NCBI GenBank assembly: GCA_015057515.1
Contig: SVED01000002.1
Coordinates: forward strand, 1 to 64,000
Direction of reading: 5' to 3'
Origin: Lachnospiraceae bacterium
GTDB lineage: Bacteria > Bacillota > Clostridia > Lachnospirales > Lachnospiraceae
DNA: 64,000 bases
The notes beneath the pieces are model-generated. The model was not told the DNA's origin. It saw only the letters and a list, made by a program, of their open reading frames with translations, and searched no databases. Below are positions 1 to 21,134 of this stretch, one piece after another (the first letter of the stretch is position 1; each line of letters opens with the position of its first letter). Both the position numbers and the translations under genes were made by a program.

Positions 1-1875
1 GTTACTGCTGAAAAGCATGATAGTTTTATTTCACCTACAGGTGATGGCCAGATTATTATGGATTTTTCAGGCAAAGAGCTTGTAAAGGGTGAGCCGGATG
101 CGTCCAGCTTTCCATCAGGTGGACTTAGAGCAACCTTCGAGGCTAGAGGATATACAGCCTGGGATCCTACTTCGCCGGCATTTATCAAGGATAAGACACT
201 TTACATACCTACAGCATTTTGTTCCTATAGCGGAGAGGCATTGGACAAAAAGACACCTCTTCTTCGTTCTATGGAAACCTTAAATCGTGCTGCAGTTAAG
301 TTGCTTCACGTTCTTGGTAATAACGAAGTAAAGCACATTTCTATTACTATTGGCGCAGAGCAGGAATACTTCCTTGTAGATAAGGATGTTTATCAGAATC
401 GTAAGGATTTAAAATATACAGGGCGTACTCTTTTTGGTGCACCGGCGCCAAAGGGTCAGGAGATGGAGGACCACTATTTTGGTAATCTTAAGCCACGTAT
501 AGCTGCATATATGCATGAACTTGATATGGAGCTTTGGAAACTTGGTATACCTGCCAAAACAAAGCACAACGAGGCTGCTCCTGCACAGCATGAGCTTGCA
601 CCGGTATTTGAAACAGCCAATGTTGCTGTTGACCACAACCAGCTTACTATGGAGATTATGAAGAAACTTGCCGACAAGCATAATATGGTTTGTCTTCTTC
701 ACGAGAAACCATTTGCAGGCATAAATGGTAGCGGAAAGCATGATAACTGGTCTCTTACAACTGATACAGGGGAAAACCTTTTTAATCCTGGAAAGACTCC
801 GGCAGAGAATACTCAGTTTTTAGTTTTTCTTGCTGCAGTAATTAAAGCAGTAGATGATTATGCAGACCTTCTTAGAATATCTGTAGCCAGTGCAGGAAAT
901 GACCACAGACTTGGTGGACATGAAGCACCTCCTGCCATTGTTTCGGTTTATCTTGGAGATGACCTTTACAAAATTATGCGTTCTATTCAGAAGGATAGAG
1001 AGATTGACCAGCAGGATAAGGTGGAAATGGATATTGCAAAGGTTCTTCCACACTTCCTTCAGGATACATCAGATAGAAATAGAACTTCACCATTTGCCTT
1101 TACCGGTAATAAGTTTGAGTTCAGAATGTTAGGCTCAGCGGCTTCTGTTGCAGATCCTAATGTATTTCTTAACACAGCTATGGCTGAGACTCTCAATGTG
1201 TTTAGAGAAAAGCTTGAGGGTGTTGCTTCTGAGGATATGGAGCAGGCTATTCGTAAGCTGGTGCAGGAGACTATGGCTAACCACAGAAGAGTAATCTTTA
1301 ATGGTAATGGTTACACTGATGAGTGGGTTGAGGAAGCAGGTAATAGAGGTTTGTTCAACTTGGTTTCTACACCAGATGCATTAGAGCAGTTTATCAGTGA
1401 GAAAAACAAAAAACTTCTTATTGAACATAAAATATTTACTGAGCAGGAGCTTTACTCCCGTTATGAAATTATGCTTGATAACTATTCAAAAACTATCAAT
1501 CTCGAGGCTAATACTATGGTGGAGATGATACAGAAGGATTTGCTTCCAGCTATGATTTCTTACACAGAACAGCTTGCGAGAACTGCAAGTTTAAAAAAAT
1601 CAGTTGTGCCTGATGTGACTTTAGTCAGCGAGGAAAGCTTAATTAAAAAGCTTTCTTTAGCTCAGACAAATCTTTATAATGGTATAGAAAAGCTTAAAAC
1701 TGATAATATGTCAGCTAAATCTATAGAAGGAAGTCTTGAAAGTGCAAAGTACTATCAGAGGGTAGTCCTTAAGGATATGGAGGATATACGAGTATTTGCT
1801 GATGAGGCAGAAACTCTTATGCCAGAATCTATGCTTCCATACCCAACCTATGGAGAATTGCTTTTCTCAATATAA
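1..1875 (+). CDS. glnN: Glutamine synthetase type III (GlnN), 5' end outside window
   Basis: Reading frame is open from base 1 through the listed start at 58; GSIII-type motifs ([44 protein letters not shown]). Confidence 0.95.
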
Positions 1876-7263: not shown

Positions 7264-7824
7264 ATGAAGAAGAAAAAACTGGCAATCATCTTAGTTATTT
7301 TTGTATTTCTGGTAGCAGGCGTTGCCTTAGCTATAGTATTATTAAACAGAACTGAGAAATACTATGTTCCATTAGAACTTTTGCTAGGAGAAAATAGTAG
7401 TACTGTTGATGAAAATGAAATAGAAGAATTTGAAAAATATCAGCTTAAGCCAATGGTTGCAAAAGGAGTTTGTGAAAGTGTATATATCAATTCAAATGAT
7501 GAAATTGTATTTGAGTATACAAAGGAGCAAAAAGAGGCGGAAATAGATGGCTTGGTAGAAATTATGACTGATAATATGATGATGATTACTTTCATAGGTA
7601 CATCATATTATAAATATAATGATGATTATACCAAAATAACAGTATCTATCGCCAGTGAGGATAATTTGGATAACCTGATTAGCTTTTCCATTTCATCTAT
7701 GCTTTTGTATCAAATATATAATGATGTACCGGCAGATGAAGCAAGTGTTGTTGCTGAGATAACCTATCTTGATTCTGGCAAGAAAGAAACAGTAACCTAT
7801 AACTGTTATAACTTGCATGAATAA
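7264..7824 (+). CDS. Small membrane-anchored hypothetical protein
   Basis: N-terminal KKKK plus TM; the ORF-track start at 7159 lies inside the repeat, so the ATG at 7264 is preferred. Confidence 0.7.
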   Translation: MKKKKLAIILVIFVFLVAGVALAIVLLNRTEKYYVPLELLLGENSSTVDENEIEEFEKYQLKPMVAKGVCESVYINSNDEIVFEYTKEQKEAEIDGLVEIMTDNMMMITFIGTSYYKYNDDYTKITVSIASEDNLDNLISFSISSMLLYQIYNDVPADEASVVAEITYLDSGKKETVTYNCYNLHE

Positions 7825-17410: not shown

Positions 17411-17845
17411 ATGAAGAGCTTTATGGCAAGCCCATCAAACATTGAAAGAAAGTGGTATGTAGTTGATGCTACAGGACATACATTAGGTCGTTTATCATCA
17501 GAGATCGCAAGCATCTTAAGAGGTAAGAACAAGCCAACATTTACTCCACATATCGACACTGGCGATTATGTAGTAGTAGTTAATGCAGAGAAGATTAAGG
17601 TAACTGGTAAGAAGATGGATCAGAAGATTTACTACCATCATTCAGACTACGTTGGAGGCATGAAGGAGCAGACTCTTAAGGAGAAACTCGCTAAGAAGCC
17701 TGAGGACGTTATCTACCTTGCAGTTAAGGGAATGCTTCCAAAGGGACCTCTTGGAAGACAGATGATCAAGAAGCTTCACGTATACGCTGGACCTGAGCAC
17801 AAGCAGCAGGCACAGAAGCCAGAAGCATTAGAGATTAAGTATTAG
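17411..17845 (+). CDS. rplM: 50S ribosomal protein L13
   Basis: [43 protein letters not shown]. Confidence 0.98.
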
Positions 17846-17856
17846 TAAGGGAGGAA

Positions 17857-18258
17857 ATGTTCGTGGCTAAGAGTACAAGATTTTACGGAACAGGTAGAAG
17901 AAAAAGCAGTATCGCAAGAGTTTATCTCGTACCAGGTACTGGCAAGATTACTATAAACAAGAAGGACATGGAAGAGTACTTCGGACTTGAGACACTTAAG
18001 GTTATCGTTAGACAGCCATTCGTTGCTACAGGTACAGTTGGTAAGTATGACGTACTTGTAAATGTACAGGGTGGTGGCTTCACTGGCCAGGCTGGTGCAA
18101 TCAGACACGGTATCTCAAGAGCATTACTTCAGGCAGATCCTGAGAACAGACCAGCATTAAAGAAGGCTGGATATTTAACAAGAGATCCTCGTATGAAGGA
18201 GAGAAAGAAGTACGGCTTAAAGGCAGCAAGACGTGCTCCACAGTTCTCAAAGAGATAA
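17857..18258 (+). CDS. rpsI: 30S ribosomal protein S9
   Basis: [32 protein letters not shown], terminal APQFSKR. Confidence 0.98.
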
Positions 18259-18649: not shown

Positions 18650-18932
18650 ATTTGTATGAACTCTGACGTTAAAATGTATGTAAAAACTTGCAGAGATATC
18701 GCAGTTAAACCCTGCGTAGAGTTACTGAAGTAGTAAATTTCTGGCAGGTAAACGATGCGTCGGTTGATTTTGAGACTTGATACTTAAAGGCTTACTTGCA
18801 GGATAGCAGATATCATCAGCTCTCTAGAACACCTCAACTCCCAGTTGAATTACTACCTCAAACTCCCTTCCCCAGTTATTGCCATACACCTACTTACCAA
18901 GCTATTATAAAAGAAAAAGGTCGGTGATTAAA

Positions 18933-20183
18933 ATGCTTAACAGTATTAAAATTGGAAACTTTATAATGGCAAAGCGCAAGGCTCTTGGTATGACACAACA
19001 ACAGCTGGCGGAGAAGTTAAACGTTTCATTTCAGGCTATATCGAAATGGGAGTGTGGAACAACATATCCTAATATCGAGATATTGAGAGACTTGGCCACC
19101 CTGCTTGATGTGTCTGTTGACGAAATTCTTGCTGGAAGTGAAAAGGAAGTAGAGGGTCTATCCTACAGCAAAGCCGGAATTGACATTACCTATACAGATA
19201 CCATCAAGAAAGAAATGTCTAAACACTTAGAAACCAAAGATAATCGCGTTCTAAATGGCCTGGGTCCATTTGCTTCACTCTACGACATAAAATTTCCTAA
19301 TATCGAGAATCCAGTCCTGGTGCTAAAATCGGAAGAACCAGGTTCAAAACAAAAGCTCGCCATGGAATATGGATACACCGAATCCATTTGCCACGATATG
19401 ATTAATCATCTAGTTAATGATATTGTGGTTATGGGAGCAAAGCCATTGGCAGTATTAGACACTATTGTCTGTGGAAACGCAGAGAAAGACACCATAAGTG
19501 CATTGGTTAAAGGTATATCAGATGCTTGTAAAGAAAATGAATGTTCCTTAGTAGGAGGCGAAACATCCATACAACCCCTTGTTGTAGAATCGGGGGTATA
19601 TGTTCTAACCTCCAGTATTGCAGGTATTGTTGAAAAATCCAAGGTTATAGATGGCTCTGCAACTAAGGAAGGAGATGCAGTACTAGCCATTGCGTCAAAT
19701 GGTTTGCATACAAATGGATACTCTTTATTGCGATTACTCATGGATAAGATGCCACAGATTAAGCTGGATAAAATAGATGGATTAACATTTATAGAGCAGA
19801 TTATGAAGCCACACACACCATATTACAAAGCTATCAAGGGATTGTTTAATAAAGATATTATTCACGGAATGGCACATATCACAGGTGGTGGTATAGAAGG
19901 AAATCTCTGCAGGGTTATTCCTGATAGTCTCTGTGCTAAGATTGATTTATCCAAGATAAAAACATTAAATATATTTAAGTATATCAAACATAATGGCAAT
20001 ATAAGTGATGAAGAAATGCTGCGAACCTTTAACTGTGGAGTGGGCTTTAATGTTGTGGTGGATCAGAAGGATAAGGAGGCAGTTATGAGACATATCAATC
20101 AGTTCTACGATTGCTATGAGATTGGAGTCATAGAAAAGGGAGATAGGAAGGTAGAATTTGAGAACAAGATATATTGGTTGTAG
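18933..20183 (+). CDS. XRE-family HTH fused to PurM-like (AIR synthase-related) domain
   Basis: HTH: IMAKRKALGMTQQQLAEKLNVSFQAISKWE; PurM-like: NDIVVMGAKPLAVLD, LVGGETS, NGLHTNGYSLLR, HITGGGIEGNL, RTFNCGVGF. ATG at 18933 preferred. Confidence 0.85.
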   Translation: MLNSIKIGNFIMAKRKALGMTQQQLAEKLNVSFQAISKWECGTTYPNIEILRDLATLLDVSVDEILAGSEKEVEGLSYSKAGIDITYTDTIKKEMSKHLETKDNRVLNGLGPFASLYDIKFPNIENPVLVLKSEEPGSKQKLAMEYGYTESICHDMINHLVNDIVVMGAKPLAVLDTIVCGNAEKDTISALVKGISDACKENECSLVGGETSIQPLVVESGVYVLTSSIAGIVEKSKVIDGSATKEGDAVLAIASNGLHTNGYSLLRLLMDKMPQIKLDKIDGLTFIEQIMKPHTPYYKAIKGLFNKDIIHGMAHITGGGIEGNLCRVIPDSLCAKIDLSKIKTLNIFKYIKHNGNISDEEMLRTFNCGVGFNVVVDQKDKEAVMRHINQFYDCYEIGVIEKGDRKVEFENKIYWL

Positions 20184-20372: not shown

Positions 20373-21134
20373 ATGAACAAAGAAGAATTAAAGAAAATAT
20401 GGCAATCAGAAGAAAATATTGCCCACATAAAGGGCTGGGATTTTTCTCACATAGAGGGAAGATTCAAATCTTATGAGGATGAACTTACTTGGGACTATGA
20501 GGCCATAGTAAAATCCTATCTTAAACCAGACTCAAGAATCTTAGACATAGACACTGGTGGAGGAGAGGTATTATTATCCTTTGGTCACCCATATCACTTA
20601 ACCACAGCAACTGAGGGCTATCCACCAAATGTAAAGCTGTGTCAGGAAACCTTAGGTGCTGAGGGCATAAGGGTAATAGGGCTTACAGATTACGCTAATA
20701 CACCATTTGAGGATAATGAATTTGACATAATCATCAATCGTCATGGCTCTTATGATGCGTATGAGCTTTACCGTATATTAAAACCAGGTGGAGTATTTAT
20801 AACCCAGCAGGTGGGAGAGGATAATGACAGAGAACTGGTGGAATATCTGCTGCCAGACTGTGAAACTCCATTTCCGGGTATGAATCTAACTACACAAAGG
20901 AAAATATTTCAGCAAGCAGGCTTTACAATTCTTGAAAGTGGTGAGGAGTACAAGCCTATAGAATTCTATGATGTGGGAGCACTGGTTTGGTTTGCAAGGA
21001 TCATACAGTGGGAGTTTAAGGGCTTCTCTGTAGATGGATGCTTTGACAGATTGTTGGAGGCAGAAAGACAAATCCAGCAAGCGGGTGTCATTAAGGGGAA
21101 TGTACATAGATATCTGATTGTAGCAAGAAAATAA
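20373..21134 (+). CDS. Class I SAM-dependent methyltransferase
   Basis: ILDIDTGGGEVLLSF (motif I), FDIIINRHG, RILKPGGVFITQQVG; RBS aaaggag. Confidence 0.85.
   Translation: MNKEELKKIWQSEENIAHIKGWDFSHIEGRFKSYEDELTWDYEAIVKSYLKPDSRILDIDTGGGEVLLSFGHPYHLTTATEGYPPNVKLCQETLGAEGIRVIGLTDYANTPFEDNEFDIIINRHGSYDAYELYRILKPGGVFITQQVGEDNDRELVEYLLPDCETPFPGMNLTTQRKIFQQAGFTILESGEEYKPIEFYDVGALVWFARIIQWEFKGFSVDGCFDRLLEAERQIQQAGVIKGNVHRYLIVARK

Follow-up and report, generated by a model that had tools for sequence, protein, structure and literature searches.

Trigger enzymes that autoregulate, such as PutA, NadR, and BirA, combine a metabolic enzyme and a DNA-binding function in one protein. In BzdR, an XRE-type helix-turn-helix (HTH) domain is joined to a shikimate kinase-like domain that senses benzoyl-CoA; kinase activity is undetectable in this C-terminal domain, and BzdR controls a catabolic promoter, showing that a fusion of an XRE domain with an enzyme can become a pure sensor (PMC3602430). 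For the AIR synthetase PurM of E. coli, Asp94, His247, Thr249, and Arg259 are the proposed active-site residues (PMC5919458). No description of an XRE-PurM fusion was found in open PMC papers. Here, we analyzed such a fusion, termed HTH-PurM, in a 64,000-nucleotide stretch of a Lachnospiraceae genome (contig SVED01000002.1), referred to as the window. Like BzdR, HTH-PurM carries behind its XRE domain a C-terminal part that descends from a metabolic enzyme; its catalytic residues are kept, and its ligand loop is changed. Unlike BzdR, it has a different enzyme fold and retains these residues, and the sole operator found for it, in its own and near-complete related genomes, is its own. As judged from sequence, it shares with PutA, NadR, and BirA the combination of enzyme-derived and DNA-binding parts, whereas fold, pathway, and mechanism differ. 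The coding features are as follows.

18933..20183, plus strand: HTH-PurM fusion gene, 416 amino acids (open reading frame, Pfam and NCBIfam matches, at least 80 orthologues, dN/dS of 0.03 to 0.1)
18963..19127, plus strand: XRE/HTH_3 DNA-binding domain, residues 11 to 65 (Pfam PF01381, 4.3e-16)
19161..20162, plus strand: PurM-like domain, about residues 77 to 410 (TIGR00878, 274 bits; AlphaFold2 model against 1cli)
19329..19349, plus strand: segment S133-EEPGSK-139 replacing the canonical TDGVGTK, near-invariant in 81 sequences

The reading frame is intact, with an ATG start and a ribosome-binding site, and the position of the start codon is common to the orthologues in the family comparison. 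Pfam places AIRS at residues 150 to 232 (8e-17) and AIRS_C at residues 245 to 406 (9e-22), and the score against the TIGR00878 purM profile (274.2 bits) lies above the curated cutoff of 236.35 bits. The AlphaFold2 model has a mean pLDDT of 82, with residues 70 to 120 weak, and its best Foldseek match is E. coli PurM, 1cli (E value of 3e-34; TM score by target of 0.85). The initial annotation had read an XRE HTH and a full PurM-like domain in a single open reading frame; the Pfam and TIGR00878 matches and the intact 416-residue frame bear this out, and the structural modeling that it had proposed as a check recovered the PurM fold.

A scan of GTDB species genomes returned 166 related stretches, of which the best 80, full length or nearly so, were kept; at least 80 further genomes, nearly all Clostridia, carry HTH-PurM at 72 to 94% identity. 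Its recurrence at 80 loci outside the window's genome shows that the fusion is neither a product of chance nor an assembly artifact. Record names of the carriers include Lachnospiraceae, Oscillospiraceae, Erysipelotrichaceae, and others, many of the carriers being gut Clostridia and one cultured carrier being Blautia parvula NBRC 113351, and within the window's genus the gene is present in 9 of 37 genomes. In a tree of PurM-like domains, the 81 HTH-PurM sequences form one group, connected by a very long branch to 23 canonical PurM sequences. Among close HTH-PurM pairs, dN/dS is 0.03 to 0.1 in both domains, which indicates that purifying selection acts on each of them.

A canonical purM, the gene whose presence the initial annotation had suggested checking, adjoins purN on contig C3 of the same genome, and canonical purM was found in all 15 of the HTH-PurM carrier genomes checked. 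By this gene content, HTH-PurM is not the cell's AIR synthase, and the earlier view that it derives from a biosynthetic enzyme holds for a PurM-like fusion distinct from the cell's canonical PurM. It could instead be a second AIR synthase, a PurM isoenzyme with its own inducible promoter that is, for example, inhibitor resistant or used in another growth state. Its TIGR00878 score, its retained catalytic residues, and the accessory purC copies under the same type of operator, described below, would fit such a role, which we nevertheless consider unlikely in view of the changes to all of the TDGVGTK, GGFxG, and AEMP motifs, the 33% identity between HTH-PurM and its own genome's canonical PurM, and the very long branch between the two groups.

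HTH-PurM resembles AIR synthetase PurM (TIGR00878; E. coli 1CLI) in its fold, its proposed catalytic residues, and the NDI, HITGGG, and RTFNxGxG motifs. It differs in its N-terminal XRE domain, in the replacement of TDGVGTK, GGFxG, and AEMP, in being encoded besides a canonical purM, and in having its own operator-like element. All motifs quoted previously are present (LKSEEPGSKQKLA, GLGPFAS, GGETSIQP, NDIVVMGAKPLAVLD, HITGGG, and RTFNCGVG). The PurM signature motifs TDGVGTK, GGFxG, and GGETAEMP are absent, and SEEPGSK, GPFAS, and GGETSIQP are fixed across the family, in which virtually every locus has the EEPGSKQK segment. Columns conserved within both the HTH-PurM and the canonical groups number 176, of which 83 are identical and 93 carry a fixed difference. 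Relative to TDGVGTK, a metal/ATP motif, the key changes in SEEPGSK are conservative (D to E and T to S, with K retained). Moreover, D163, H315, T317, and R327 are invariant and, matched by spacing and motif, equal D94, H247, T249, and R259 of E. coli PurM. The alteration of nucleotide-binding residues in the initial annotation is therefore real at the level of motifs, but the loss of function that it implied was overstated, since all four proposed catalytic residues are kept. The site looks retuned rather than dead. The K-x-E spacing of the SEEPGSK region is also like that of the PurL motif FKNETHNHP from the same genome, a likeness that is suggestive only.

Upstream of the gene lies a conserved two-site candidate operator/promoter element spanning positions 18833 to 18908, with the following parts.

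18833..18851, plus strand: candidate operator site A, palindrome cTCAACtcccaGTTGAATt (kept, with a constant distance to site B, in about 75 of 81 loci)
18860..18881, plus strand: candidate operator site B, AAACTCccttccccaGTTATTG, overlapping the -35 (upstream alignment of orthologues)
18879..18908, plus strand: predicted promoter, with -35 TTGCCA at 18879 to 18884, an 18-bp spacer, and -10 TATTAT at 18903 to 18908 (read from the sequence)

The upstream consensus reads atTCAACc-N3-gGTTGAATt, a spacer, and aaayTC-N9-GTTATTG, mostly followed by the -10 pattern TATnATaAA, which is kept in most orthologues, and by CGGAGGT. In the upstream alignment the element travels with HTH-PurM although the neighboring genes are mostly unrelated, and a 21-letter operator pattern occurs with at most 3 mismatches in 75 of 81 loci, 42 of these 75 having none. 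The initial annotation had placed autoregulation elsewhere, in an upstream dyad array. This array consists of tandem dyads (TTGGGCATATA...TATTGCCC) from 18398 to about 18650 with a period of about 73 bp, comprising three exact pattern matches and a degenerate fourth. The dyad repeat recurs in the same genome, on contigs C34 and C40, and in four related genomes, and it is present in G010, a genome without HTH-PurM. We therefore rejected the array as an operator; it is a dispersed repeat unrelated to HTH-PurM, and the gene-linked element is the one at 18833 to 18908.

Searching the 37 genus genomes with the pattern gave one site in each of the 9 carriers, always before HTH-PurM, and otherwise matches in G022 and G036 and a weak one in G016; the reversed pattern, used as a control, matched once across the same genomes. 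The strong matches outside HTH-PurM (G022 and G036) directly precede two related HTH genes. The pairing of element and HTH domain is itself read from sequence, which would accommodate an element belonging to a different, host-wide regulator and an HTH domain that binds elsewhere. This seems very improbable to us, as the strong matches in the genus are confined to genomes with these HTH genes and lie directly before them, in contexts that otherwise differ. A site profile (R1), scored on the best 150 candidates per genome, gave an E value of 2e-10 at the window's gene; elsewhere among the best 150 candidates of its own genome (85% complete), nothing scored better than an E value of 0.2. A second operator copy was likewise not found among the best 150 candidates of each of four near-complete relatives (G013, G019, G020, and G035). 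HTH-PurM is thus probably autoregulated through the two-site candidate operator. Since XRE proteins commonly autoregulate, other targets with weaker sites are possible.

These searches also bear on whether the PurM-like domain has lost catalysis altogether and acts as a pure sensor, the main rival reading, in which the protein would bind a ligand and regulate purine genes or others in trans from sites that are weaker or of another kind. The precedent of BzdR (PMC3602430), the canonical PurM also present in the cell, and the remodeled TDGVGTK and GGETAEMP motifs fixed across the family all speak for such a sensor; the retention of every proposed catalytic residue and the lack of a second operator copy in the four near-complete relatives speak against it. 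By analogy it may be entertained as a serious, if on balance doubtful, possibility.

The same operator precedes other fusions. It was found before HTH-TehB-like methyltransferase genes (G022 and others), before an HTH-GNAT gene in G721, before a free HTH gene followed by NAD-epimerase and GNAT-like genes in G036, and, elsewhere in the class, before HTH-TPR-like genes in G848, G990, and G790, where the TPR label was assigned by eye and the operator matches in G990 and G790 are weak (E value of about 0.001). The HTH domains of these sister fusions are 40 to 78% identical to that of the window, and its recognition region, SFQAISKWECG, is nearly the same in the HTH-methyltransferase, HTH-GNAT, and HTH-TPR-like relatives. 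The XRE-TehB-like methyltransferases (e.g., G374 and L258) share the operator/promoter architecture and the recognition region, their HTH domains being 42 to 58% identical to that of HTH-PurM; they differ in having a class I SAM methyltransferase C terminus, and in some genomes the next gene is purC or one with a PHP domain. Because operator and recognition region recur together in this way, the operator would appear to be shared by a broader group of autoregulated XRE proteins in which the C-terminal part has been exchanged. In locus L284 (G848; 1400 to 1560, minus strand), the HTH-TPR-like gene is preceded by two copies of site B (AAACTCnCTTnnTCGGTTATTGC), the second of which has its own promoter-like sequence.

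The connection to purine metabolism proposed in the initial annotation is upheld only indirectly, through sister HTH-methyltransferase genes beside purC; purC, purD, purE, purN, and purL were sought in the available flanks of the 80 HTH-PurM loci, and none was found. In six genomes (G048, G374, G384, G307, G721, and G598), purC comes after an HTH-methyltransferase gene; purH and purD lie upstream of the pair in G598, and the copy in G307 is split between two frames. In locus L260 of G043, a genome without HTH-PurM, the operator (about 7436 to 7491) stands directly before purC. In all seven of these genomes, the purC at the locus is an extra copy. A PHP-domain gene comes next after HTH-methyltransferase in G066 and in both copies of G256. 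The purC link is a minority pattern, yet it spans at least two types of purC: within a sample of 299 genomes, 14 carry HTH-methyltransferase, and only 1 of the 14 has purC beside it.

Strong conserved neighbors of HTH-PurM were sought across the loci and not found. The gene lies within a few kilobases downstream of rplM-rpsI in 11 to 12 of 81 loci scattered on the gene tree (positions 17411 to 18258 of the window, and L007, L009, L014, L015, L025, L030, L039, L040, L044, L053, and L063), a pattern that would fit either an ancestral position or repeated insertion at one site. A methyltransferase gene lies about 190 bp downstream of HTH-PurM in the window (20373 to 21134), and its relatives are also downstream of HTH-PurM in L006 and L007. 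Cargo of a mobile element, phage, or plasmid was rejected: no relative was found in viral contigs, and plasmid and phage matches were all below 60% identity, those listed covering essentially the PurM part alone. In phage record MT836161, what had seemed a distant HTH-PurM proved to be a canonical purM on an apparently bacterial contig. A role in antiphage defense was also rejected, the PADLOC matches covering the HTH part.

We propose that HTH-PurM is a bifunctional protein, an autogenously regulated PurM-derived enzyme or a binding protein/sensor, a reading that we hold to be about evenly balanced between right and wrong. An autogenously regulated enzyme or binding protein is favored over a pure transcription factor, because a regulator detectably sited solely at its own promoter needs another use. 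In this model, dimers would occupy both the palindrome and the second site, whose separation is 31 bp (three helical turns), and at the -35 they could either block RNA polymerase or tune it. The PurM-like domain may bind ATP-Mg and a small phosphoribosyl (FGAM- or AIR-like) ligand whose occupancy would alter DNA binding, such that expression would follow ligand supply. Since no other gene with this operator came up in the tested genomes of the genus, what the protein usefully delivers is more probably an activity or binding function of its PurM-like domain than the regulation of many genes. A broader proposal, which we advance tentatively and regard as rather improbable, is that the XRE-operator module, joined to PurM-like, SAM methyltransferase, and GNAT domains and occurring as a free HTH before an epimerase, defines a class of self-regulating clostridial metabolic enzymes with a link to an accessory purine branch. 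The active site of HTH-PurM would then have been adapted to a new ATP-dependent reaction, and the substrate of this reaction would also switch the gene on.

In sum, HTH-PurM may represent a self-regulating enzyme or metabolite sensor of a kind not yet described. With its score above the curated TIGR00878 cutoff, automatic pipelines would be likely to label it purM, and it could be taken for the AIR synthase of the cell. The defined candidate operator opens its target, ligand, and activity to direct testing. Should a purine intermediate be what HTH-PurM senses or uses, the protein would be a regulator or trigger enzyme of the PurM family without description in the open PMC papers searched, and the sister fusions on the same operator suggest that one control module has been joined to several enzymes.
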